Positions 1-41,695 of a DNA stretch of 64,000 bases are shown piece by piece. The notes beneath the pieces are model-generated. The model did no database searches. It had not been told where the DNA came from and saw only the letters and a program-made list of their open reading frames with translations. Within the stretch, counting starts at the first letter, position 1. The number at the start of each line of letters is the position of its first letter. Both the position numbers and the translations under genes were made by a program. The DNA is from Pseudovibrio sp. Alg231-02 (lineage in GTDB: Bacteria > Pseudomonadota > Alphaproteobacteria > Rhizobiales > Stappiaceae), in contig NZ_FREX01000005.1 of the NCBI RefSeq assembly GCF_900143565.1, positions 1-64,000 of the forward strand, read 5' to 3'.

Positions 1-197
1 CATCTCATGGCGATAAATCTTTCCCCCATAGGGCTCATAGGGTATTAGCAGTCGTTTCCAACTGTTGTCCCCTACCACAAGGTAGCTTCCCACGCGTTAC
101 TCACCCGTCTGCCACTAATCCCGAAGGATCCGTTCGACTTGCATGTGTTAGGCCTGCCGCCAGCGTTCGTTCTGAGCCAGGATCAAACTCTCAGGTT
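1..197 (-). rRNA. rrs: 16S ribosomal RNA, 5' end (partial)
   Basis: The reverse strand carries the universal 5' segment of bacterial 16S rRNA: the 27F primer region (AGAGTTTGATCCTGGCTCAG) lies close to the right end, followed by the conserved stretch that runs through the 'TGGCGGCAGGCCTAACACATG' type motif and 'GTGAGTAACGCGTGGGAA'. The gene runs off the left edge of the window. The mature 5' end is placed near 197 by analogy with other 16S genes; the precise base is inferred. The sequence has an alphaproteobacterial look. Confidence 0.97.
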
Positions 198-551
198 CTA
201 CTGAATATTAATCCCAACTTAAATCACGTTTCTGTACTCAAATCTAACCGACCATAAATGGCCAATTAATAGACGAGGAACACGCAAATAATTAAGACCG
301 AAGCCTCAATCTTTGGTGTTCTGAAAAACGTAAACTAAGTCAGCTATTCCGTAACAGTGGCTTGTTACCAAACCACTCGCGAATAACCGCCGTCCACGTT
401 TCTCTTTCTTCTTCCGTATTCAATTGTCAATGAACGGAGACTTTCGCCTCAATATCCAGACTTACAAGACCTCTTAAAAACCCCGTAAATCCTTCTGTTT
501 TTGTGCCTCCGAACCGGCGCCTCAGTGGCCCGCCCCGGTGGCGTGAAGCGG
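198..551 (-). promoter_or_regulatory. rrn transcript leader (5' external spacer)
   Basis: This is the roughly 350-base transcribed leader between the rrn promoter and the 16S 5' end. On the minus strand it contains a segment around 400-440 reading TTGACAATTGAATACGG followed by AAGAAAGAGAAACGTGGAC, a type of sequence that I recall from alphaproteobacterial 16S leaders, where antitermination (boxA-like) and RNase III signals sit. No open reading frame or tRNA is visible in it. Exact processing sites cannot be assigned by eye. Confidence 0.6.
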
Positions 552-580
552 GTTATAGGGATACCAGACCGACCCGTCAA
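552..580 (-). promoter_or_regulatory. rrn operon sigma-70 promoter
   Basis: On the minus strand a -35 box TTGACG (575-580) is separated by exactly 17 bases from a -10 box TATAAC (552-557), so transcription should start near 545. Upstream (higher coordinates, about 585-780) the DNA is very AT-rich with A/C on the plus strand, as expected of an UP-element region. The position, about 350 bases before the 16S 5' end, fits the main rRNA promoter. Confidence 0.8.
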
Positions 581-1100
581 CACGCAAACTCCAAAAAAAC
601 AAAACAATCGGGCAAAAACTAAAATTCAAACAATTCAATAACTTCATATATCAACACATACACCACCACCAGACACCCAAAAACCCCAGAAACAAGCCAA
701 TAACAACCAGCCAAAACACCAAAAATTAACAAAAACAAAATTTGCACAAACGGGGATATCCAACTTTTTCAAACGAAACCCACACCCCCAACACACCCAA
801 ACCACCGCAAACGTCCCTCTGATACTTCAGCGAGTCGCTCAACCGCTGCAAACCGCCCTTCACCGAGTTTGCGTTCTTATGCGTTAGTCTGCGTTATTTC
901 GGTGTGAGACGCGCGATCTTGCGTTCCTATGTCCGCAAACACGGCAAAAGCCCGATCCAGCCGCCCGCGCCCACAGCTCCAACCGATCCCAACTTATGCC
1001 CCTCACCGTCAGGCCCGAGCCAGCCAGCCCAAACTCGACTTATGCCCGCCTCACCAAATCCTACCGCAAACCATGACAGCCTGTCCCAGCTAGACCAGCC
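581..1100. other. Non-coding region upstream of the rrn promoter
   Basis: No convincing gene. From about 585 to 780 the plus strand is almost free of G (A/C-rich), consistent with an UP element and flanking bent DNA. At 871, 881, 891 and 921 a GCGTT motif recurs in exact 10-base register. A proline-rich open frame at 904-1149 has no Shine-Dalgarno sequence and no plausible domain, and I do not call it a gene. Confidence 0.5.
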
Positions 1101-1466
1101 TCACCGCCCCGGCAGGTCCACGGTTACCGTCTCACCGCCATATCCATGAAAACTGTCTCTTGCACGAACAACCACCCGCGACATCCCTTCTGGAATCTGC
1201 ACACCGCTTAAAGACCGCGTGAACGGCTGCTCCTCCACATGCGGATGGGCCAGCACCCGCACGGCCAGCACCTTGCCGTCTTCAGAAAGCACCTCCCACG
1301 CATCTGCATAATGGTCCCACCCTTCATCGCTGTGGCGCACACTCACCTCAAACCGATAGGAGCCTTCCGCCTGCGGGGTCACATTCACGTTGACCACATC
1401 AGCCTCCCCCGCCAAAACCGGGGTCACCAACAAACTGAGGAATAGTCCAGAAACAAAAGCACGCAT
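1101..1466 (-). CDS. Small secreted hypothetical protein
   Basis: A 121-residue protein that starts MRAFVSGLFLSLLVTPVLAG, a clear Sec signal peptide with a cleavage site near residue 19. The mature part is a single small domain rich in beta-strand patterns (SYRFEVSVRHSDEGWDHYAD, then VVVRARDSFHGYGGETVTVD). I chose the ATG at 1466 because GGAGG ends five bases before it; an in-frame ATG four codons upstream has no such site. Its 5' end abuts a degenerate copy of the R1 repeat. I do not recognise the family; a periplasmic location is inferred from the signal peptide. Confidence 0.75.
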   Translation of the reverse strand: MRAFVSGLFLSLLVTPVLAGEADVVNVNVTPQAEGSYRFEVSVRHSDEGWDHYADAWEVLSEDGKVLAVRVLAHPHVEEQPFTRSLSGVQIPEGMSRVVVRARDSFHGYGGETVTVDLPGR

Positions 1467-1478
1467 AAAAGCCTCCAT

Positions 1479-1575
1479 AAGAGCGTGATCCGTTTGATCC
1501 TATGCAATCAAACCCAATAAAACCGCTCCACCAAATATGTGAGAGCACAATGCGTGACCGTAAAGAGACGCATCA
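1479..1575. repeat. R1 intergenic repeat, degenerate copy
   Basis: About 95 bases match the two better copies at 13181-13284 and 18388-18491 (shared words AGAGCG, CCGTTTGAT, AATCAAAC, CGCTCCACCAAA, GAGAGCACAATGCGTGA). The internal hairpin is kept as GTTTGAT / ATCAAAC with an eight-base loop, but the right terminal part has decayed. Confidence 0.6.
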
Positions 1576-1664
1576 AACTCCAGGTTAGCTGAAAGGCTAG
1601 CGCACCAACCCCGCCCCGCAACCCACAAAACATCAAAATGTCTTGAGCAAACCAGCCGCTCCAC

Positions 1665-3041
1665 TCACTCATGCATATAGATGGAAGATTTCGGCATGGA
1701 GAGGAACACAACCAGATTGGCAAGCACACCAATCACCAGTCCGGGCAGATCAAAAGGCGAGTCGAGCCCGCTTTGCCACAACACCGTCGCAACAACACCC
1801 GTCACCGCCCCGGCCAAAAACGCAGGTGTTCCACGGCGAGCGCCATAGATCGCCGCAACCAGCGGCACCAGCACAATCGGCGCCCAATAATTGTAGGCGT
1901 AAATCAGAATATCCAGAATGCTCTCTATAGAGACGGCAAACACAATAGAAAGCAGCCCCACAACCAGCGTCACCAGCTTGGCGATGAACAGCAGGTCCTC
2001 TTCCCGCATCTCTTTGCGCCGCAAAGGCCGCAACACATCATTCACAAACGCAATACTGGCGGAATTGAGATAGGAATCTGCCGAGGACATCACAATCGCA
2101 ATCACACCGGAAAACACCAGCCCCTTCAGCACAGGCGGCATAACGCTCACAATCACAAAGGCCATGGCATTATTAGGGTTCAGGTCCGGGTCCAGCGCAA
2201 AGGCCACCAAACCAATGGCTCCGGTGATTGCAAAGAAGAGAAAAGAGAACAGCCCGGAATAGAGTGTACCGCGCGCCGCAGCAGACGCGGTCTTCCCCGC
2301 CAGCAAGCGCTGCATATAAGGAGGCACCAAAGTCTCCCCAAACATAAAGACAAGAATAAGCCCGATCAGCCCCATCCAGCCAAAGTCCGGCCCGGGCAGG
2401 CTTAGATGATCTGGCGGCACCGCCGCAAACAGCGCATCAACACCGCCAATTTGATAAATGCCAAAGCCCAGCACCAGCGGCATGCCAATCGCAAGAATAA
2501 CGAATTGCACCACATCGGTGTAAACCACAGCCCGCATACCGCCCAGCGTCGTATAAAGAATAACAATGCCGCAGCCGATCCCGATGCCCCAGAACCGGTC
2601 CAACCCAAAAAACACGTTGAAGATGACGCCAATCGCCCCAACCTGCGCGCCCACAATACCGCAGCACAACAATAAACCGCAGACACCCGTGGTCAGTCTG
2701 GCCAGCTTGCCATAGGCCTTGCCCATAACATCCCCAACAGACACCGCATCAGGAAACGCCTTCATCTTGGGTGCAATCAGCGTGGCAACCGCAATTTCCT
2801 TACAGCTGAAGCCCCACAGCGCCACAATGTTGGCAACGCCATATAAAAACACCTTCTCTGCATTGCCGGTAGAAAAGCCCCCGCCGATAAAAGAGGCGGA
2901 CATGGTGGCGAAGATAACAAGAGCCCCAAACTCACGCCCCGCCGTCGCATAATCCTTCAGCCCCCGCTGAATCCGACCACCCCACAACCCCACCACAAGT
3001 ATGCCAACCAAATAGCCAGCCACGATAATCATGTCGATCAT
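1665..3041 (-). CDS. Sodium:solute symporter family (SSS) transporter
   Basis: A 458-residue, highly hydrophobic protein with about twelve to thirteen membrane segments spread over its whole length. It has the layout of the SSS/SLC5 family: an N-terminal helix, then a glycine-rich unwound segment (ATMSASFIGGGFSTGNAEK, about residues 46-64), a conserved LYTTLGGMRAVVYTDVVQF stretch near 164-182 that resembles the family signature, and a late EDLLFIAKLVT segment. The substrate cannot be read; relatives carry sugars, amino acids, proline or organic acids with sodium. It stands alone with no operon partner. It is a little shorter than the usual 500-550 residues. Family call secure, substrate unknown. 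Confidence 0.88.
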   Translation of the reverse strand: MIDMIIVAGYLVGILVVGLWGGRIQRGLKDYATAGREFGALVIFATMSASFIGGGFSTGNAEKVFLYGVANIVALWGFSCKEIAVATLIAPKMKAFPDAVSVGDVMGKAYGKLARLTTGVCGLLLCCGIVGAQVGAIGVIFNVFFGLDRFWGIGIGCGIVILYTTLGGMRAVVYTDVVQFVILAIGMPLVLGFGIYQIGGVDALFAAVPPDHLSLPGPDFGWMGLIGLILVFMFGETLVPPYMQRLLAGKTASAAARGTLYSGLFSFLFFAITGAIGLVAFALDPDLNPNNAMAFVIVSVMPPVLKGLVFSGVIAIVMSSADSYLNSASIAFVNDVLRPLRRKEMREEDLLFIAKLVTLVVGLLSIVFAVSIESILDILIYAYNYWAPIVLVPLVAAIYGARRGTPAFLAGAVTGVVATVLWQSGLDSPFDLPGLVIGVLANLVVFLSMPKSSIYMHE

Positions 3042-3505
3042 CAGCAGGGGTTCCTTTTAGACAACAACAAACGCAAGCGCGCCGTACCTCTATCAGGAAG
3101 ACATTACACGACAGTGAGACAGACCATTAAAAGGCGGGGCTTGGGAGATGGGGATAACGACGCATTACTCATTAAAAATGCAAGAGAAACCTAAGCTCTC
3201 GAACACAGCAGTAACGCATTACCAAGTTTACATCTCAAGCATTCACACAAACTCTGGGCACTTCCCAATAAAGTTATGTTTTAGCTCATAAAATACTATC
3301 TAACTTGCTACTTAGAGCAGAAATTACAAGGCACAGACATTCTTATGAATGTCTGTGCCAACCAAAATATTAAGTACACATATCCTTATTAGAGTTTCCA
3401 AAAGGAACAGTACTATAGAGATTACCTGAACAGGTGAAATCGTCTGATAGATGCCAGAAAATCTACGCATAACACGGCCTGTTATTCTGCTCACAATCTA
3501 TCAGC
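3042..3505. other. Intergenic region with a perfect 13-bp hairpin
   Basis: A 460-base stretch between the symporter and the accessory patch. No gene is supported. The main element is the inverted repeat at 3330-3359. The right half is noticeably AT-rich, which marks the start of the low-GC patch. Confidence 0.5.
3330..3359. terminator. Perfect inverted repeat, possible terminator of the HNH/ATPase operon
   Basis: The 13-base arm GGCACAGACATTC and its exact complement GAATGTCTGTGCC flank a four-base loop (TTAT). It lies about 150 bases downstream of the HNH gene on the minus strand. There is no T-run on either side, so Rho-independent termination is uncertain; it could also be a protein-binding palindrome or a mobile-element scar. 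Confidence 0.4.
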
Positions 3506-4168
3506 TCAGCCCACAACCTCATCTTCTAGTCGTTTTTTCAAATCAAGTAATTTTCTATCATCTTGGAGCTGCCAATACCAAAAAGCAGAGTATTCATAAT
3601 TTGGATCTGCCATTTCAAGAATTGCCGCTAAAGCATCCTTTCGCTCATTAGGAGTGCTGCGTTGGCTAACCGCTTTATTTCGATGCTCCATGTAAATTGC
3701 GAACTTATCCCAAATATCATCAAGCATATTTTCATTATGTATTTGACGAACCCCAGTATCTTTTAAATTATAACAATCCTCCAATAATTTTGCTGTATTA
3801 TTAGATTTATCGCAATTAAGCATATCAACAACTTTAACTTTACCTTTTAAAGTATTAGGCGGCTCTAATCTGATTGCTTGCTGAACATCCGTATTAGTAT
3901 CACTACAATCAAGTAGATTTGTGTGTTTAGTGGACTTTATTTTATTGCAATGAGAACAACCCAAAAAAAGATTAGTCCAGGTATGTATGAGATTTTTGTT
4001 TTTGGCTTGCGGTTCAAAATGCTCAACCTCAGGACTGGCAATCAGCTGCTCACATAAATAGCATTTTCTATAAAAAATCTTATTTATCTCATTAACCACT
4101 TCAGGGTGACCATATTTTTTCCCTTTTAATTGCTCAGGAAGCTCTTGAGGTCGTTTAACATTAAACAT
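3506..4168 (-). CDS. HNH endonuclease, PtuB-like (Septu-type defence)
   Basis: A 220-residue protein with an HNH nuclease core in its first 80 residues: a zinc-knuckle pair CYLC (36-39) and CSHC (71-74), the catalytic EH of PEVEHFEP (49-50), and NLFLGCSHCNKIKS, the NxxxxC..CN..K arrangement of HNH nucleases paired with ATPases in Septu (PtuB) and in some retrons. The rest is helical. Its ATG follows the stop of the ATPase gene directly, with GGAGG inside the end of that gene, so translation is coupled and the two proteins are expected to form a complex. Known Septu pairs restrict phage, probably by nucleic-acid cleavage. The region is AT-rich compared with neighbours, which suggests transfer. 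Function in this organism is inferred. Confidence 0.8.
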   Translation of the reverse strand: MFNVKRPQELPEQLKGKKYGHPEVVNEINKIFYRKCYLCEQLIASPEVEHFEPQAKNKNLIHTWTNLFLGCSHCNKIKSTKHTNLLDCSDTNTDVQQAIRLEPPNTLKGKVKVVDMLNCDKSNNTAKLLEDCYNLKDTGVRQIHNENMLDDIWDKFAIYMEHRNKAVSQRSTPNERKDALAAILEMADPNYEYSAFWYWQLQDDRKLLDLKKRLEDEVVG

Positions 4169-5401
4169 TCAGCCCTCCGAATCCAGAAGGGCATTCTCAC
4201 CTTTTAGAAGGAAAGCTCTTGATCTCTTATCAAGATTGCTCTCAGCACTTTTCAAAATGCTAGTAACTTCCTTAAGGCGCTCAAAATCAATCGACTCCGA
4301 GTTTAAGATCGAGGTTAGTTCTTCAACTAAATCGACCAAACGGTTAGATATCGATGGAACTTGGAGCAACCCCTGTAGAATAGCAGAGTACGAGTACAAT
4401 GATAAATCTTCAGAAATCAGCTCCTTACTACTAAGATCATATATTACAGCATTTTGCATAGACATAATCACGAATGGAGAGTGTGTCGTGACTATGAATT
4501 GTACATTGGGGAATGACGTAGTCAGAAAAGGAAGGATAAGCCGTTGTAATGAAACGTGCAAATGAACATCAATTTCATCGATGAACACTACTCCACTTAG
4601 TTCACCTGGAGCAATCTCAAAATATTCTGAGTGTAGTAGCAACTCTAGATAAATCTTGAAGATGCTTTGGTATCCAGAAGACAAATTCTGAAATGTGAAA
4701 TCAGGTTTCCCATTTTGCGAAATTGAAAAACTCAGATGGTTTTTGTCAAATGTAAGATCGGTGGTTTCATCTTCAAACAAAATCCGAAGTTTCTCTATGA
4801 AATCTTCAAACCACAGTTCGAGCTTCTCAGCTACTATATCTTTATCTCCATTTTCTTTGCCAAGAGCTATTCGAGTCCTCATGTTAACAAGGTGCTGTTC
4901 GAGAGTGGCGCTATGTTGCGCGTGTCGAGCTAGACTTCTTGCATTCTCCTTTTGCGTATCCACTCCGGTTGCACTTGAGGTTTGCGCAATCTCAGCCTTC
5001 CGATCTGCAGTCAAATAGAGTAAAATCGCTGTCCTTTCATCCAGCCTATCAGCAAAATCCAGTGGATCAGCGATCTCTATAAGAACAGCACTCTCAAGAT
5101 CGGCCAATTCTCTATGAAAGCTTTTGATTGATGCTAAGACACGATTGTACTGCTGTGTCCCTTTTTTTAAACTTGGCAACGCCTTTTCCAGGCGCATCAG
5201 CTCGTTGTAAACTTCTTCCTCGCGATTGTGTTGCTTCTGACGAATGCGTTTATCAAGTCTCTGGTAGAGCTCTGTTAGCAGGCATGTCTTTCCAGTCCCA
5301 TTACTCCCTGTAATCAGAAGATTTTTGCCATACAGTTTTATCTCTATGTCAGTATGTGTGTTCGGTATCGTTCCACTTATGCGATCGATATAACTAGTCA
5401 C
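4169..5401 (-). CDS. AAA/ABC-type ATPase, PtuA-like (Septu-type defence)
   Basis: A 410-residue ATPase of the SMC/OLD/ABC-like class. Visible are a Walker A GSNGTGKT (32-39), a coiled-coil insertion (about 50-105 and 135-215), an ABC signature LSSGYQS (240-246), Walker B VVFIDEID (271-278) and a switch histidine in TTHSPF (305-310). This architecture with an adjacent HNH gene matches PtuA of Septu. The start codon is GTG at 5401 and overlaps the end of a 99-codon upstream frame by eight bases. It is shorter than many PtuA proteins. It could alternatively belong to another ATPase-HNH defence pair without a retron; I see no reverse transcriptase or msr/msd nearby. Confidence 0.8.
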   Translation of the reverse strand: MTSYIDRISGTIPNTHTDIEIKLYGKNLLITGSNGTGKTCLLTELYQRLDKRIRQKQHNREEEVYNELMRLEKALPSLKKGTQQYNRVLASIKSFHRELADLESAVLIEIADPLDFADRLDERTAILLYLTADRKAEIAQTSSATGVDTQKENARSLARHAQHSATLEQHLVNMRTRIALGKENGDKDIVAEKLELWFEDFIEKLRILFEDETTDLTFDKNHLSFSISQNGKPDFTFQNLSSGYQSIFKIYLELLLHSEYFEIAPGELSGVVFIDEIDVHLHVSLQRLILPFLTTSFPNVQFIVTTHSPFVIMSMQNAVIYDLSSKELISEDLSLYSYSAILQGLLQVPSISNRLVDLVEELTSILNSESIDFERLKEVTSILKSAESNLDKRSRAFLLKGENALLDSEG

Positions 5402-5693
5402 GAAAATTCCAATCAGTTTTGCTCTGTTTCAAAAATGAACCTTTGAACATAGCTTTCATAACGTACCACTCAAAATCAACAACTACTGATTGAAGTTCAA
5501 CTTTAAAGTAATTTACAGAGGAATATTCGACCATTTTAACCAGGTGCCGAGATTGCTTAGCCCTAAGCAGGTTTAATACAACAAACAAACTTGTTCTCCG
5601 AACAAAACCGTTTGTAAGTGGTAATAAACTACCACAAGAAACTGCTATGATGGCCACGAAGTAAGGCGCTTTCCAATCTGTTGGAATGTACAA
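5394..5693 (-). CDS. Small hypothetical protein upstream of the ATPase
   Basis: A 99-residue frame that starts MYIPTDWKAPYFVAIIAV and holds one possible membrane segment (about residues 11-28), then a basic, hydrophobic C-terminal half. Its last eight bases overlap the GTG of the ATPase gene, the arrangement expected of an operon partner. There is no strong Shine-Dalgarno sequence and I recognise no family, so it may be a chance frame. If real it could be a third component of the defence locus. Confidence 0.35.
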   Translation of the reverse strand: MYIPTDWKAPYFVAIIAVSCGSLLPLTNGFVRRTSLFVVLNLLRAKQSRHLVKMVEYSSVNYFKVELQSVVVDFEWYVMKAMFKGSFLKQSKTDWNFRD

Positions 5694-5708
5694 ATGACGG
5701 CGCGCTTA

Positions 5709-5880
5709 TCAGGCAAGCATGCCGTCTGGTGAGTGACCGCATTTTGTGGGTACGATCAACACCTGATCCCGAATGGCTGGCTCGAGTTCATCAAACCAGC
5801 CGAACAGGGAACCAGATTAAGTCATCCGGGCATCAAACCAGTCCAGCAACAATTCCGGGTTTTCAGAAAAGTATTTGCAG
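5709..5880 (-). pseudogene. Possible degraded coding remnants
   Basis: On the minus strand two short stop-bounded peptides look protein-like: one at about 5817-5880 reads KYFSENPELLLDWFDARMT, and one at about 5709-5814 contains FGWFDELEPAIRDQVLIVP. Both lack starts and are separated by a stop. The D/G-W-F-D motif occurs in both. This suggests the tail of a lost gene at the edge of the accessory patch, but the stretch is short and the case is weak. Confidence 0.2.
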
Positions 5881-5905
5881 GTAGCTAAGCCACAACACCG
5901 CCATC

Positions 5906-6328
5906 TCACACAGCTACCGGGACCGCCTCAACATCATACTTGTTCGGTCCCTTAGTCCCCGCTGCAAAACCAACATTCGCCAGTCCGCCCATTGCCACGA
6001 ATGCAAACACAAGACTGACAACAAGTGAGGCACCATATTCCGGGAGTGTTGGGAGGACGGCGAAGTAGATGGACGGAACAAGGAAATAGAGAACAAACCA
6101 CCAGCCGGATTTTCCCATGTCGTGCAAACGCCTGATCATCAGTGAAAACTGGATATAGTAAAGGGCAATGGACATGAGAATTGCCATGGTCCTTGGGACG
6201 GGGTGAGAAGCGATCGGGAACACTTCAATCATGAACACCAGACCACACATAAACAGGCCAATCCAGAACAGGTTAAACAACCAAAACTTCGCTCTGCCCA
6301 ACCTGCCTTTAATCCCAAGATAGAACAT
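5906..6328 (-). CDS. DUF805 family membrane protein
   Basis: A 140-residue protein with the DUF805 (YhaH-like) pattern: the N-terminal motif GIKGRLGRAKFWLF (5-18), four membrane segments, an RRLHDMGKSGWW motif (about 66-77) and the C-terminal GTKGPNKYD (about 124-132). These are the family's diagnostic motifs. The function is unknown; it is an inner-membrane protein. The ATG at 6328 has a weak GGTGGTGGG upstream. A different-frame ORF overlaps its first 100 bases and could be translationally coupled. Confidence 0.85.
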   Translation of the reverse strand: MFYLGIKGRLGRAKFWLFNLFWIGLFMCGLVFMIEVFPIASHPVPRTMAILMSIALYYIQFSLMIRRLHDMGKSGWWFVLYFLVPSIYFAVLPTLPEYGASLVVSLVFAFVAMGGLANVGFAAGTKGPNKYDVEAVPVAV

Positions 6329-6564
6329 CCCACCACCATATTGCTCATGTGCGCTGAAGTCGGTCTGGCAACTCTAAAGCGCCCCAACTCATCGCAATAT
6401 TCCCAAAATATTGAGGGTCCAGATAACAAACCTGTTTCTGATGCAAAACCGATTGCAGGTGGTAAGAAGCAAACCGTCGCAACTATCATGAGGGTGCGGG
6501 CTGCGAAACGCATTTTTGCTCGTGATAACTGAGACTTCAAAAACCTCCTGAACGCCATAGGCAT
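6229..6564 (-). CDS. Possible small membrane protein overlapping the DUF805 gene
   Basis: A 111-residue frame with a basic N-terminus and one hydrophobic segment (TLMIVATVCFLPPAIGFASE, about 24-43), resembling a signal anchor. Its last third overlaps the DUF805 gene in another frame and is cysteine-rich and less protein-like. The N-terminal two thirds are unexplained otherwise. It may be a real short gene, or an N-terminal piece separated from DUF805 by a frameshift. Confidence 0.3.
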   Translation of the reverse strand: MPMAFRRFLKSQLSRAKMRFAARTLMIVATVCFLPPAIGFASETGLLSGPSIFWEYCDELGRFRVARPTSAHMSNMVVGCSILGLKAGWAERSFGCLTCSGLACLCVVWCS

Positions 6565-6658
6565 CTACTAAATTATATAGGTGCCTGCAGTTGTATACTT
6601 GTCAAATACATCACATAGTATGCATGTCTAAAGCATTCATGCAGCAGGAGGCGAGCCG

Positions 6659-7714
6659 TTGAGTGAGGCAATTCAAACGGAACCGATCGTCGGCCTACCA
6701 AGAAACTCATTCTCACTAAATTCCATCCGGCGAAAAGACAGATTTGCGTTCTGGCGAGAGAGCTTAGCCTGTCTTTGCGAGGCAGAAATTCACCGCGGCG
6801 AGGATCAGCTCGATTTCTTTGGTGAGATCCAGTCAGTGCTGTTCGATTCCCTCATGCTCTCTCAGGTGACAGCACAGGCCCACATCGCCAACCGCACCAA
6901 TGCGGCCATGGCGCGAGATGGCGTAGATCATTATTTGCTGATGGTTCATGATGAGGGCGACGCCGAATTCTATACCGGGCAAAAGAGCGTCAACCTCAAC
7001 AAGGGTGACTGCATTTTTCTGGATTTCTCACAGGAAGGTGGCTCAATCTCGGGCAGTTACAGCAATCGCTCCATTCTGATTGCACGCGAGCAGCTTGCGC
7101 CCCTGCTGCACAGCCCCGATGACAGCAACTTAAAAACACTCCCGGCGGCCCATCCATTAAACGTGATTTTGCGCGAACACCTCTCGTCAGTCAGCGCCCA
7201 GACCAACAAGCTGAACATGCAGCAAGCCCAGCAACTCGTGCCCGCAACCATGGGGTTGATTGCAGCGTGCCTGAATGGAATGCCTCATGAAAGCGAGGCA
7301 GGGCAGGAAGGTGTCAATCTGGCCTTGATGACCCGCGCCCGCCGCATTATCGAGGCAAACCTGACCAACCCCAACCTGTCTCCGGACTATCTCGGCGGCG
7401 CTATAAACGTATCGCGCAGCAAACTCTACGAGTTGTTTCTGTCTTTCGGCGGCGTCAGCAAATACATCCGCGACAGGCGCATGAAGGCCGTCTTGCGCGC
7501 ACTGCTAGACCCGCGCAACGCCTACAGAGCAACCTATCAGGTGGCCTTGGACTTTGGCTTCATGAATGAAAGCAGCTTCAGCCGCATGTTCAAGCAATAC
7601 TTCGGCTTCTCCCCTCGCCAGGTGCGCTCAAAATCCTTTGAGATCACCGCAGCCGCTCAGGGAGAAATCAAGCAAGGCCGACAATACGAAGACTGGATCC
7701 TGAACCTCAGCTAG
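6659..7714 (+). CDS. AraC family transcriptional regulator
   Basis: A 351-residue regulator. The first 200 residues form an AraC-binding-like domain; the last 110 hold the two helix-turn-helix motifs of the AraC/XylS family (LGGAINVSRSKLYELF, then YQVALDFGFMNESSFSRMFKQYFGFSPRQVR). The start is TTG at 6659, chosen because AGGAGG stands seven bases upstream. Its stop codon lies in a CTAG that also contains the stop of the convergent DASS permease, so the two genes overlap by four bases. The inducer and targets are unknown; the permease is one candidate target. Confidence 0.88.
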   Translation: MSEAIQTEPIVGLPRNSFSLNSIRRKDRFAFWRESLACLCEAEIHRGEDQLDFFGEIQSVLFDSLMLSQVTAQAHIANRTNAAMARDGVDHYLLMVHDEGDAEFYTGQKSVNLNKGDCIFLDFSQEGGSISGSYSNRSILIAREQLAPLLHSPDDSNLKTLPAAHPLNVILREHLSSVSAQTNKLNMQQAQQLVPATMGLIAACLNGMPHESEAGQEGVNLALMTRARRIIEANLTNPNLSPDYLGGAINVSRSKLYELFLSFGGVSKYIRDRRMKAVLRALLDPRNAYRATYQVALDFGFMNESSFSRMFKQYFGFSPRQVRSKSFEITAAAQGEIKQGRQYEDWILNLS

Positions 7715-9546
7715 AACGGCAAAAACACCGGAATGAGCAAGGTGGCAATTGCCAGCGCCATGATCTGCAGTGGCACGCCAATCACCACGTAATCCTTGAA
7801 CCGGTAGTTCCCCGGCCCCATCACCAGCGTATTGATGGGCGAGGCCACAGGCGTACAAAACGCCGTCGAAGCCGCAATCGCAACGCTCATCAAAAACGGC
7901 TCAGGCCGCACACCCATAATCGCAGCCACCTCAAACGCAACAGGCGCAATAAGCACCGCCGTCGCCGTGTTCGACGTAAACTGGCTGAAAACAGAGGTGA
8001 GCAAAAACAACGACATCAGCATCACATAAGGCGGACTATCGCCATAAAGCCCAACGATCTGATCCACGATCAACAGCAGCCCACCCGTCTTTTCCAGAGC
8101 GGTGGCCATGGGCATCATCCCCGCAATCAAAATCAGACTGGGCCAGTTGATGGAGGTGTAAGCCCGATTGACCGAAACACACCCCGCACACACCATAGCC
8201 GTCGCCGCCAGCACAACCGCCGTCACACTGGGCACCACGCGGAAAATGATGAGCGCCAGCATGACCGCCAGAATACCAAGCGCGACAGGCGCCAGCTTGC
8301 GCCGCGGCAGATAGTTCTTAATCTCCTCCGGAAACGCCAACAGAAGAAAACTCTCCCGCGCCGCCTGCAGTTTGCTGATGTTCTCCCAGTCCCCAACCAC
8401 AAGCAACTGGTCCCCAAACTTCAGCTCGATGTTCCCAAAGTTCCCGTGCAGAGTTTCCCCCTTACGGATAAGCCCAACAACGCTCAGGTTGTGGTTGGTC
8501 CGAAACCCGGCACCACTGATCTTTCTGCCGATCAGCTTGGAATCCGGCGCCACAATCAAATCCGCCATGCCAAGCTCACGAGCAGAAAGGTGATGCCCCT
8601 CCTCGCCCATCGGCAACAGCTCCAGCCCGATGCAGGCAAACACATCCCCGCTGATAGGCTCCTGCATCACCCCAAACACAATATCACCAGCCTTGAAGGC
8701 ACGGTTTGTCTGGGTCGATGTCACCTTCAGCCGCTTGGTCGTGGTGGAGGTATACTCCAACCCAAACAGTGTAAGCCCAATCCGCCGCCGCAGCTTCGCA
8801 CTCACAACAGTCTGCCCAACCAGCTCCGAATCCTCACGGACCCGCAGACGGACAATCTTGTCTTCAATATCGTAGGCTTCCAAAAACCCCTGCAGCGTCC
8901 GACGCCCCTGCTCCGTCGCTCCTTGAGGCCGCTGCTGACCACGCAAAAACAGGCGGCCATACACCAGCATGTAAATCACGGCCACAATGAGAATAACGAG
9001 CCCGATCGGCGTGAAGATGAAGAAATTGAATGGCTCCATGCCAGCATTTTGCAACTGAGCATTGGCAATCAGGTTGGGTGGTGTCCCGATCAGCGTCAGC
9101 ATCCCCCCAATCAGCGCCCCATAAGCAAGTGGCATAAGCAGCCGCGAAGGAGAAAGGTTGGAGCGGCTCGCAAGGCGGATAGCAACCGGAATAAAGATCG
9201 CCCCTGCCCCGGTCACACTCATAACAGACGCCAGCGCCGCAACTGTCAGCATCAGCAGAACGATCAGTTTCCACTCCTGATCCCCCGCAATCTGAACGAT
9301 CTTGTCTCCAACCGCATAAGAAATCCCGGTTTGAGCCAGCGCTTCACCGACAATGAACAGTCCGGCAATCAGAATAACAACGGTGGATCCGAAACCCGAA
9401 AGCATTTCAGCAGGCGTCAAAATACCAGACAGCCCAAGCGCCAACATCACCATGATCGCAACAAGGTCCAGCCTCAGCTTGTCAGAGACAAACAGGATGA
9501 CAGCTGCAAACAATACGAAGAAGGTGAAAAGCATTTCCCAAGACAT
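7711..9546 (-). CDS. SLC13/DASS family permease with two RCK_C (TrkA-C) domains
   Basis: A 611-residue inner-membrane transporter. An N-terminal bundle of six hydrophobic segments (1-200) is followed by two tandem TrkA-C/RCK_C domains (about 215-300 and 305-395), of which the second ends in NIELKFGDQLLVVGDW, and then a C-terminal membrane half with SFLLTSVFSQFTSNTATAV-type helices. This is the standard layout of the SLC13 permeases that carry sulfate, dicarboxylates or other anions with sodium; the RCK_C domains suggest ligand control. The substrate cannot be assigned. It ends inside the AraC regulator gene by four bases. Confidence 0.88.
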   Translation of the reverse strand: MSWEMLFTFFVLFAAVILFVSDKLRLDLVAIMVMLALGLSGILTPAEMLSGFGSTVVILIAGLFIVGEALAQTGISYAVGDKIVQIAGDQEWKLIVLLMLTVAALASVMSVTGAGAIFIPVAIRLASRSNLSPSRLLMPLAYGALIGGMLTLIGTPPNLIANAQLQNAGMEPFNFFIFTPIGLVILIVAVIYMLVYGRLFLRGQQRPQGATEQGRRTLQGFLEAYDIEDKIVRLRVREDSELVGQTVVSAKLRRRIGLTLFGLEYTSTTTKRLKVTSTQTNRAFKAGDIVFGVMQEPISGDVFACIGLELLPMGEEGHHLSARELGMADLIVAPDSKLIGRKISGAGFRTNHNLSVVGLIRKGETLHGNFGNIELKFGDQLLVVGDWENISKLQAARESFLLLAFPEEIKNYLPRRKLAPVALGILAVMLALIIFRVVPSVTAVVLAATAMVCAGCVSVNRAYTSINWPSLILIAGMMPMATALEKTGGLLLIVDQIVGLYGDSPPYVMLMSLFLLTSVFSQFTSNTATAVLIAPVAFEVAAIMGVRPEPFLMSVAIAASTAFCTPVASPINTLVMGPGNYRFKDYVVIGVPLQIMALAIATLLIPVFLPF

Positions 9547-9921
9547 CGTCTTAGAGTCCTTCGAGAAGTAAATCAGAGAGTTCTGGTCGCAAAATCTGTG
9601 CGATGTATACGAGGCATACTCGGCAGATCTTAATAAGACAGGAAGTCTTATAGGCCACCGCTTAGTTTATCACGAGATATATGTAAACGTTTTGCTATCA
9701 AACCGCGTATTTGTGACTGTGGATATATTATAGGTTATTACCCCTATACTTTATTCAATTTCGCAAAAGAGCATGAATTCCCTTCATCAAGCTGGCATTC
9801 ATCCCACTTTTGTCCTCCACTCTTGGCAAAACAGATGGTTTCGTCACATCCCGGGATATTCTAGAATTATGACCATAGGGCACAGAATACCACGCGCCTG
9901 ACTTCCACAATGAGGAACGTC
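9547..9921. other. Divergent intergenic region
   Basis: A 375-base spacer between the divergent permease and DUF4336 genes. It must hold both promoters. It contains a dyad AAGACAGGAAGTCTT near 9635 and an AT-rich stretch at 9660-9760. No gene is visible. Confidence 0.4.
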
Positions 9922-10629
9922 ATGTCAACGCTTTACTCATTCGCTCCGGAAATATGGTTGGCAAGTGGACCAGTCATCACAGCCGCACTTGGCTTTCGTT
10001 ACTCAACCCGCATGGCGGTCATCCGCCTGCAAAATGGCGAGCTCTTCATCTGGTCTCCCATAGCTTTGTCAGACAAGTTGAAAGACCAAATAGATGCGCT
10101 CGGCCCCGTTCGCCACATCATCGCACCAAACCATCTGCACGACAGCTTCCTTGCGGAATGGGCCACGGCTTATCCTCAGGCCCAACTCCATGCCGCCCCT
10201 GGTCTGGCTGAAAAGAGACCAGATCTGTCCTTCAGCTCTACCCTGAGCAACACGCCTCAGGCAGATTGGCAAACAGAGATTACCCAGTCTGTCGTGGGTG
10301 GCAACTCCATTACAACAGAGGTGGTGTTCTTTCACAAAGCCAGTAGAACCACGCTGTTCACAGACCTGTTGCAGCAGTTTCCTAAAGGATGGTTCAGAGG
10401 ATGGCGGGCCCTCGTTGCACGGCTCGATTTGATGACAGAACCAACACCAAGTGTGCCACGCAAGTTCCGCCTCGCCTTCCGCGATAAGACAACAGCCCGA
10501 AAAGCACTCAAAAAAATTCTCGGCTGGCCGACAAAAGCGGTCGTAGTCGCACACGGTGATCCTGTAACCACTGACGGTGCTGCTTACCTTGACCAAGCCT
10601 TCCGCTGGTTGAAGATCAGGTCACGCTAG
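9922..10629 (+). CDS. DUF4336 domain protein, metallo-beta-lactamase-like fold
   Basis: A 235-residue protein matching DUF4336: it opens with an aromatic-rich start (YSFAPEIWLASGPV), then TRMAVIRLQNGELFIWSPIA, PVRHIIAPNHLHD (about 69-81), a FHKASRTTLFTDLLQQFP stretch and a final VVAHGDPV. The family resembles MBL-fold hydrolases but with a reduced metal site: NHLHD stands where HxHxDH would be, and AHGDP near the end could supply a late histidine. Activity is unknown. I start at the ATG at 9922, which has GAGGAA five bases upstream, rather than at the ATG four codons earlier. Confidence 0.8.
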   Translation: MSTLYSFAPEIWLASGPVITAALGFRYSTRMAVIRLQNGELFIWSPIALSDKLKDQIDALGPVRHIIAPNHLHDSFLAEWATAYPQAQLHAAPGLAEKRPDLSFSSTLSNTPQADWQTEITQSVVGGNSITTEVVFFHKASRTTLFTDLLQQFPKGWFRGWRALVARLDLMTEPTPSVPRKFRLAFRDKTTARKALKKILGWPTKAVVVAHGDPVTTDGAAYLDQAFRWLKIRSR

Positions 10630-10644
10630 CTTATCGACGCATTA

Positions 10645-10684
10645 GAAAAAACAAAACGGCGGAGAACTCTGGTTCCCCACCGCC
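10645..10684 (-). terminator. Intrinsic terminator between convergent genes
   Basis: On the minus strand GGCGGTGGGGAAC, a CAGA loop and GTTCTCCGCC form a GC-rich hairpin followed by GTTTTGTTTTTT. It follows the stop of the DUF4345 gene and faces the 3' end of the DUF4336 gene. Confidence 0.75.
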
Positions 10685-10719
10685 TAAAACTCCCAGCCCT
10701 TAAAGGAGCATTGATCCTC

Positions 10720-11091
10720 TTAGAAGGGCCGTAAGAAAGCACCAAGCAAAGCTGCGATAAGAACGAGCTCAACAATAAGCGGCGGAACAACTTCTTTTAC
10801 AAATCCATCTGCCAGCAAGCCGACAACACGGCCCAGCGCAACAACACCCAGCAAAATGGCAACAACGACATAGGCTTGCGGCTGCGCCGTCACAAACCCA
10901 ATAATCAAAAGCGCAACACTTGATAAGAACAGCCCACCAATCACAGATCGGATCGTGCTCAGACCGGCAACACCAACGGGCTCAAGCGCAAAGTTCTTCG
11001 TCATGCGCGACGGAGCAAACATTGAGACGGTCCCCAGACCGAGAAGCATAAGTGTCGGGGCGCCAACCATAATGAGATAGATAAGATCCAT
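10720..11091 (-). CDS. DUF4345-like four-helix membrane protein
   Basis: A 123-residue protein with four membrane segments (about 5-25, 45-65, 72-92, 100-120). The motif LSTIRSVIGGLFLSS between helices one and two resembles the conserved stretch of DUF4345 small membrane proteins. The function is unknown. It is monocistronic, with its own terminator downstream and a repeat element directly upstream. Confidence 0.7.
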   Translation of the reverse strand: MDLIYLIMVGAPTLMLLGLGTVSMFAPSRMTKNFALEPVGVAGLSTIRSVIGGLFLSSVALLIIGFVTAQPQAYVVVAILLGVVALGRVVGLLADGFVKEVVPPLIVELVLIAALLGAFLRPF

Positions 11092-11116
11092 AGGTTCTCT
11101 CCAGATTAAATAACTA

Positions 11117-11218
11117 CAGCGTATCTCCGAAAAGTGGAAACCGGTTTTCGGATAAAGAAACGCAAAAACAAAGACGAAAGCAGTTCAGGTGTTTCAGCTT
11201 AAATGCGGACTGCTTTAG
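11117..11218. repeat. R2 interspersed repeat (Rhizobiales-type), long copy
   Basis: About 100 bases starting AGCGTATCTCCGAAAAGTGG, with the inner dyad CCGAAAAGTGGAAACCGGTTTTCGG, then a GGATAAAGAAACGCAAAAAC tail and GCGGACTGCTTTA at the end. The same core recurs in shortened form at 23311, 30004 and 39665. Repeats of this kind are common in rhizobial genomes; the dyad would fold in RNA. Confidence 0.7.
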
Positions 11219-11222
11219 GGAA

Positions 11223-12146
11223 TTAGATGAGTTGATGGACAGCCTGATTGGCGTTGTCCTGAAAACTGTGATTGTTGAGAGCAGAAAAGAGAGAGGCCTG
11301 ATCAGTCAGCTTGCCGATAGCACCTTCACCAGCACTGGCGTAGAAAACACCGCTCTTGAACTTCGGGTCCAGAATACCATCCACATAGCGCTTCGCACCA
11401 TCTTCAACGCCATGCATCATGCCCAGCAAAGGCATCAGAACGCCGCCCACATGCTTGAACAAAAGCCTCTTAACGAAGGGCATATCATCAAACCCGTTGG
11501 TGCCAGTGGTACCGCCCGGGCTCATGGTCACAAAGCGAATATGCGGGTGCTGACGAGCCATGGAAGACATCCATAGAGCGCCAATAAGCTTCACGCTCGC
11601 ATAGGCATCCATTGGATCACTCTTTTTAGTAAACGTGCGCCCATCCACCATAGCGCGGAACTCATCCACAGACGCTTCTTTCAGCACGGGGCGGGCAACA
11701 CCCATCTTAGGAATGCCACGCGCTGCTTCAGAACCTGCATAAAGCACGGTAGAGGTGATCAGTTGACGTTCAAGCATCTCGTCCACCAACACCACATGAC
11801 CCAGCAGGTTCACGGCATAAATGTTGGTTACACCATGTGCAGTCATGCCATTGGGCGACCGGCCACCCACCCCGCCTGCATTAAGAATGAGAGCGTCCAC
11901 CGGTGCCGCCATCTGCCTAATGGCCTGACGCACAGACTCCGGATCCATCACGTCCATCAGGATAATTTCAAAAATTGCGCGTTTGGCCTCAGCTTCAAGC
12001 GCAGCTTTTGCTGCCAAAGCTTTGGCTTCATTGCGACAGGCGAGGTAAATCCTCTCAATACTGCTGGTCTTTGCAAGTTGTCGTGCCGCCTCACGGCCTA
12101 ACCCTGCATTCGCACCGGTAATCAAAACAGATCTGATCGGAGACAT
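11223..12146 (-). CDS. Short-chain dehydrogenase/reductase (SDR)
   Basis: A 307-residue NAD(P)-binding oxidoreductase. It shows the Rossmann glycine motif TGANAGLG (about 9-16), the NAG motif of ALILNAGG (about 88-95) and the catalytic YASVK (about 172-176). It is longer than minimal SDRs and close to the retinol dehydrogenase-like type. I start at the ATG at 12146, with AGGAAA seven bases upstream; an open extension of 35 codons overlaps the divergent LysR promoter and is unlikely. The substrate is unknown. The divergent LysR gene is its probable regulator. Confidence 0.85.
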   Translation of the reverse strand: MSPIRSVLITGANAGLGREAARQLAKTSSIERIYLACRNEAKALAAKAALEAEAKRAIFEIILMDVMDPESVRQAIRQMAAPVDALILNAGGVGGRSPNGMTAHGVTNIYAVNLLGHVVLVDEMLERQLITSTVLYAGSEAARGIPKMGVARPVLKEASVDEFRAMVDGRTFTKKSDPMDAYASVKLIGALWMSSMARQHPHIRFVTMSPGGTTGTNGFDDMPFVKRLLFKHVGGVLMPLLGMMHGVEDGAKRYVDGILDPKFKSGVFYASAGEGAIGKLTDQASLFSALNNHSFQDNANQAVHQLI

Positions 12147-41327: not shown

Positions 41328-41402
41328 TGGTACGCCCAAGGGGAATCGAACCCCTGTTTCCGCCGTGAAAGGGCGGCGTCCTAACCGCTAGACGATGGGC
41401 GC
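41328..41402 (-). tRNA. tRNA-Glu (UUC), copy 3 of the cluster
   Basis: 75 bases including an encoded CCA. The anticodon loop is CCTTTCAC with anticodon TTC in a five-pair stem CCGCC/GGCGG; the T arm has GGTTCGATTCC; the D arm TCTAGCGGTTAGGA. All canonical stems form. Identical to the other two copies. Confidence 0.97.
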
Positions 41403-41473
41403 TCACAAAGTGAGAGAACTCTTTCAAGCTCTGTCTTCGAGCAGATAACTGCTCGGCATTGAGAAGACAACTA

Positions 41474-41548
41474 TGGTACGCCCAAGGGGAATCGAACCCC
41501 TGTTTCCGCCGTGAAAGGGCGGCGTCCTAACCGCTAGACGATGGGCGC
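41474..41548 (-). tRNA. tRNA-Glu (UUC), copy 2 of the cluster
   Basis: Identical 75-base gene with encoded CCA. The 71-base spacer to copy 3 and the 72-base spacer to copy 1 share the words TCACAnAGTGAGA and CAGATAACTG, so the unit of about 146 bases was duplicated as a whole. Confidence 0.97.
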
Positions 41549-41620
41549 TCACATAGTGAGAAGACTTTTCATAGTCTTGTCTTCAAACAGATAACTGTCT
41601 GGTATCGCAATAAAAGCCTT

Positions 41621-41695
41621 TGGTACGCCCAAGGGGAATCGAACCCCTGTTTCCGCCGTGAAAGGGCGGCGTCCTAACCGCTAGACGATGGGCGC
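41621..41695 (-). tRNA. tRNA-Glu (UUC), copy 1 (promoter-proximal)
   Basis: Identical 75-base gene with encoded CCA, first in the transcript, 28 bases after the -10 box of the promoter at 41723-41751. Confidence 0.97.

Follow-up and report, generated by a model that had tools for sequence, protein, structure and literature searches.

A probable Septu type I gene pair at a variable chromosomal site of Pseudovibrio sp. Alg231-02

Two adjacent genes of Pseudovibrio sp. Alg231-02, one coding for an ABC-type ATPase (ptuA) and the other for an HNH nuclease (ptuB), were presented in a preliminary description, made from the letters of the DNA and its open reading frames, as a PtuAB-like defence pair with a possible third small gene. 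The locus raises the question of whether this pair is a Septu system, the effector of a retron or a housekeeping ATPase/HNH pair, and whether the 99-codon frame that overlaps the start of ptuA belongs to it. We addressed this question in the window, i.e., the whole stretch of 64,000 nucleotides that was analysed (contig NZ_FREX01000005.1, positions 1 to 64,000), and the features concerned are collected in Table 1. We consider it very probable that an intact two-gene Septu type I system was acquired here into a variable site, and that the 99-codon frame next to it is open by chance.

Table 1. Features of the ptuA/ptuB locus, in coordinates of the window
Feature	Position	Strand	Description	Basis
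ptuA	5401..4169	minus	410-aa ABC-type ATPase, GTG start	PADLOC PDLC00268, 8ee4_A profile match, alignment
ptuB	4168..3506	minus	220-aa HNH nuclease, two CxxC pairs, ATG start	PADLOC PDLC00331, invariant residues
13-bp perfect hairpin	3330..3359	minus	3' of ptuB; may be a transcription terminator, though with a weak T run	
99-codon TTG frame	5394..5693	minus	8-base overlap with ptuA; considered open by chance rather than a gene	
Strain-specific segment	3149..5895		2747 bp, GC 0.394, conserved flanks on either side	
45-nt stretch	5584..5628		inside the 99-codon frame; 80% identity with 6425-6468, which precedes the DUF805 gene	
51-nt stretch	5821..5871		82% identical (E 0.12) to L032:5610-5660 (relative G003, same locus)	

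The family to which the two proteins belong was established by searches against specific models. The ATPase matched the PADLOC PtuA1 model PDLC00268 over its full length (residues 1-409 on positions 1-407 of 411; 435 bits, E 7.4e-131), and its partner matched the PtuB1 model PDLC00331 in the same way (residues 1-215 on positions 1-219 of 222; 223 bits, E 1.1e-66), Pfam assigning AAA_21/AAA_15 domains to the former and an HNH domain to the latter. The two genes follow each other on one strand, the TGA of ptuA and the ATG of ptuB being in direct contact at 4168/4169 with zero spacer. GGAGG precedes ptuB and only GGAA precedes ptuA, whose homologues begin, in the alignment, at or close to the position of its GTG start. 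Terminator-like sites number three across the region, compared with a shuffle mean of 2.4.

The catalytic residues of both proteins are intact. PtuA carries a Walker A motif (GSNGTGKT, with K38), an ABC signature (LSSG, 240-243), a Walker B motif (FIDE, with D275/E276) and a THSPF motif providing the switch histidine H307. Among 44 sequences picked from 121 (window included), K38, G243, D275, E276, H280, H282 and T306-H307-S308-P309 are invariant, and G32, N34, G35, G37, T39, L240 and S241 are conserved in at least 90%. In PtuB, H50 and N66 are invariant among 39 sequences (window included), as are the four cysteines of the two CxxC pairs (C36, C39, C71 and C74). The earlier reading of a PtuAB-like pair, directly joined from stop to ATG, with an intact ATPase core (Walker A, ABC signature, Walker B and switch histidine) and an intact HNH with zinc knuckle, is confirmed in each of these parts. 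What we looked for in a Septu type I system, i.e., matches to the PtuA and PtuB models, adjacency on the same strand, and the Walker A/B and H-N-H residues, was found in full.

Compared with known Septu type I systems (PADLOC PtuA1/PtuB1, no reverse transcriptase), the pair is alike in gene order, direct join, full-length model matches and intact motifs, and it is unlike them in sequence only: identity reaches no more than 44% among the 120 homologues compared, and no added component withstood our tests. A PtuA profile built from 41 sequences aligned, over positions 5-378, with residues 3-433 of the solved PtuA chain 8ee4_A, which we take to be the Septu of E. coli ATCC 25922; this PtuA (465 aa) differs from the present one in being 55 aa longer and is remote in sequence. 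The same profile matched retron-type PtuA chains across the ATPase half, and a PtuB profile of 36 sequences matched retron I-A PtuB chains across the HNH part. Both proteins also matched PHROGs of unknown function (phrog_9802 for PtuA, E 2e-67; phrog_16204 for PtuB, E 3e-48), so phages carry relatives of the pair. The residues mutated in Septu Ec-B88, as described in PMC13096335 (K43/D316 and H75/N91), are of the same kind as K38/D275 and H50/N66 here, whereas the Walker A to Walker B spacing differs from that of the present PtuA, the two being compared by residue numbers and not by alignment.

We then considered the pair among its homologues. An earlier scan of genome contigs with a single protein found no relative. 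An alignment-based scan found 332 relatives on genome contigs and 85 on viral contigs, and the 167 loci studied comprise the best 80 of the former, 80 of the latter and seven found earlier, this set being picked by ATPase similarity, so that rare variants may be missed. The ATPase match is on the plus strand in all 167 loci as extracted. In 138 of them the PtuA frame measures 380-480 aa, with a median of 410, the other 29 (frame below 380 aa, above 480 aa, or none) being left out. The present ATPase, which had been called short for a PtuA, has exactly this median length, so it is of the usual size for its subfamily. PtuB is matched (E below 0.01) in 125 of the 138 loci with a full PtuA and is without a match in 13; the ptuA-ptuB gap ranges from -17 to +68 bases in the 124 loci where it was measured (one gap was not), and lies within 20 bases in 115 of them. 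Relatives of the pair occur in viral contigs as well, and in E. coli M7424 the pair is located in a P2-family prophage, with tail genes on both sides. According to PMC9122126, hotspots of anti-phage systems occur in P2-like phages and P4-like satellites; Septu is named for the P4 spot. The HNH frame of this M7424 prophage (L015:6435-7087) measures only 111 aa, and a second, small frame comes after it, an arrangement that may represent a broken ptuB. In Persicobacter, the pair stands beside frames that resemble a restriction specificity subunit and an ATP-binding protein, as judged from reading the frames and not from a family search.

Homologues of PtuAB serve as effectors in retrons, among them Ec78 and Ec83, from which the best PDB matches come, and a Septu with a reverse transcriptase (RT) ahead of ptuA corresponds, according to PMC8565338, to Septu type II or retron I-A. 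The pair could in principle be such a retron whose RT and msr-msd RNA are lost or hidden. However, no RT gene was found beside it among the eight frames of the neighbourhood that were searched with Pfam, the pair being flanked by symporter, DUF805 and AraC genes; Rfam gave a single match in positions 1-12000, the 16S rRNA, and no retron RNA; and the folding of the 299 nt upstream of ptuA does not surpass that of shuffled sequences (z -1.05). The PADLOC model of the retron I-A ATPase (ATPase_I-A) gives 91 bits, compared with 435 for PtuA1, and the NCBIfam models made for retron Ec78 stay far under their cut-offs (85.8 of 500 for PtuA, 22.3 of 150 for PtuB), which places the pair at a distance from the Ec78 effector. 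Across 125 loci, no YxDD motif was found in the complete upstream same-strand frames of at least 200 aa; the test is a crude one and does not cover frames truncated at the ends of the loci. We rejected the retron reading on the flanks, the RNA search and the upstream fold, and regard it as very unlikely. Since neither an RT gene beside the pair nor a retron RNA signal was found, we assign the locus to Septu type I; the pair differs in this from the PtuAB of retron-Eco7 (PMC11555353), being without RT.

The 99-codon frame is the point on which the locus could have departed from a standard Septu. It starts with a TTG at 5693 and ends 8 bases inside ptuA, and this open, operon-like overlap with the ATPase start is real; its status as a gene, on the other hand, is not supported, with neither a family nor a conserved neighbour behind it. 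As a third, membrane-associated component it would have one moderately hydrophobic stretch to offer, but a 19-residue stretch as hydrophobic occurs in 282 of 1000 random frames of the same composition, and the proposed membrane association is left with a hydrophobicity that is unremarkable. No ribosome site is visible by eye ahead of the TTG. The island-model codon score is -0.001, which is inside the range of real 100-codon ptuA/ptuB segments (-0.31 to 0.04), a range overlapping that of out-of-frame ptuA (-0.38 to -0.08), yet two of the five other frames, at -0.133 to 0.011, score higher; with the host model, the frame scores -0.304 against -0.560 to -0.285 in other frames. Since the ranges overlap, the codon score discriminates poorly and is compatible with both coding and chance. 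Frames as long arise in 89 of 2000 shuffles on that strand and in 179 of 2000 on either strand.

The search for relatives of the frame gave a similar picture. PADLOC, Pfam and NCBIfam contain nothing that matches it, nor did the collections of plasmids and phages at E 1; in its favour stands a weak match to a single PHROG (phrog_8500, residues 2-34, E 0.021). By tblastn in the 167 loci, seven matches fell below E 10, the best at E 0.16 in L162; this one and that in L099 lie antisense within ptuA, the sole match on the right strand less than 1 kb from ptuA is in L069 (about 360 nt upstream, E 8.9), and the remaining ones are further off. None of them is a credible relative: conservation beside homologous pairs, on which the preliminary description had made its third gene depend, was not found. 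Among 61 genomes, 18 rows fall outside the own genome (16 of the 60 others, E 0.005 to 0.85), and several of them cover residues 7-55 in genus relatives, which could speak for a gene, but 11 of the 18, the best one (E 0.005) included, contain internal stops.

We also asked for any upstream partner, defined as a same-strand frame of at least 50 aa whose end lies at most 60 bases inside ptuA or 100 bases ahead of it, in 124 usable loci (window included; two of 126 were dropped for too little upstream sequence). Such a frame is present in 60 loci and absent in 64, and the 60 frames form no family, one cluster of 13 standing beside groups that are at most pairs; the annotated case of this cluster (L015) runs antisense to the baseplate V gene of a phage. 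In a stricter window, a frame of at least 80 aa is found in 9 of 123 loci. Moreover, 45 nt of the 99-codon frame resemble the intergenic stretch 6425-6468. The pattern shared by 5603-5627 and 6444-6468 has no other site in the own genome and was found in one of 16 genus genomes, i.e., the own one, and no second strong match to a 161-nt stretch turned up in that genome; for these reasons 5584-5628 looks like a local copy, and a dispersed genome-wide repeat under the frame was rejected. Taking both sides together, it is highly improbable that the locus is a Septu variant in which this frame codes for a third, small and membrane-associated component. We give as little credit to the idea that the frame, or an RNA covering it, is a lineage-specific regulator of PtuAB (a leader peptide or inhibitor) that would have arisen in this strain and hence have no relatives. 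Most likely, as judged from sequence, it is open by chance, in an upstream stretch that has partly decayed.

How the pair came to its present place can be approached by comparing the site among related genomes. The strain-specific segment 3149-5895 has a GC content of 0.394, compared with 0.509 in 9001-64000. The symporter flank is matched in 9 of 16 genus genomes and the DUF805/AraC flank in 5 of 16, the own genome being counted in both. Eight relatives were fetched, and four of them (G003, G005, G009 and G015) keep both flanks; all four match the symporter flank up to 3145-3148 and then diverge, similarity resuming at 5896-5901 in three of them and at 6561 in G003. Between the flanks, G003 carries a molybdopterin oxidoreductase, G005 a candidate defence protein, a KAP NTPase whose best PADLOC match is the candidate PDC-S20, and G009 and G015 a DUF6630 protein with different neighbours, 871 nt being shared at 92%. 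The segment of the window showed no similarity to these four inserts (blastn and tblastx, E 1e-3). In the five related genomes compared, the site holds different genes, with one gene shared by two. In the loci L032, L033, L034 and L035 and in the window, this turnover site lies between a sodium:solute symporter near a 16S rRNA gene and DUF805/AraC. Elsewhere in the window, three successive tRNA-Glu (ttc) genes occupy 41328-41695 on the minus strand.

No orthologue of PtuA was found in any of the 15 genus relatives searched, the ATPase match in G014 being a distant one (28% across some 120 residues), and PDLC00268 at 1e-50 was matched in 4 of 398 genomes drawn from the phylum, the own genome included. 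The AAA_21/AAA_15 and HNH domains are broad, and could also suit a housekeeping or DNA-repair pair of the genus, which the preliminary description had allowed for as a family present in all relatives at this locus; but this absence, the low GC, the different genes at the site in four relatives and the matches to specific PtuA and PtuB models make that explanation extremely improbable. Horizontal acquisition of the pair is supported by the sequence comparison. The earlier description had already pointed to transfer from the low GC and from degraded fragments at the edge, and both observations stand, short decayed-looking stretches being present at the right edge; the missing orthologue and the other genes in all four relatives keeping both flanks agree with them. 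The 51-nt stretch of Table 1 may be a decayed remnant of an older gene. The DUF805 flank of G003 did not match at the L032 locus that holds this similarity. End repeats are short and imperfect only, and a mobile element bounded by a clear repeat pair, none being seen at the two ends of the segment, was rejected.

As for the way in which a Septu type I system of this kind would act, PtuA and PtuB are reportedly, following Li et al. 2024, assembled into an oligomer. By analogy, we infer that the present PtuA would assemble through its ATPase head into a complex under the control of ATP, and would keep the HNH nuclease PtuB in check before infection. Upon infection, PtuB would cut a nucleic acid, i.e., phage or nicked DNA, or host tRNA, and this cutting would stop the phage and often kill the cell too. 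The described systems provide examples of each: in Septu Ec-B88, the ATPase and HNH residues are stated to be both required for defence, and tRNA-Tyr is cleaved (PMC13096335), a loss of tRNA-Tyr is described for the PtuAB of retron-Eco7, and the Septu of ATCC 25922 is reported as acting on nicked DNA (both in PMC11555353). As judged from its sequence, the present pair may cut either DNA or tRNA.

In conclusion, the pair appears to be one more well-formed member of Septu, of the 410-aa PtuA class, differing from the known ones in sequence only. Because the 12 PtuA-type PDB chains found by the PtuA profile measure 456-552 aa, this shorter class, to which the pair adds a member, is apparently without a solved structure of its own. 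The site itself illustrates, in a modest way, chromosomal turnover at a spot where defence genes are occasionally present.
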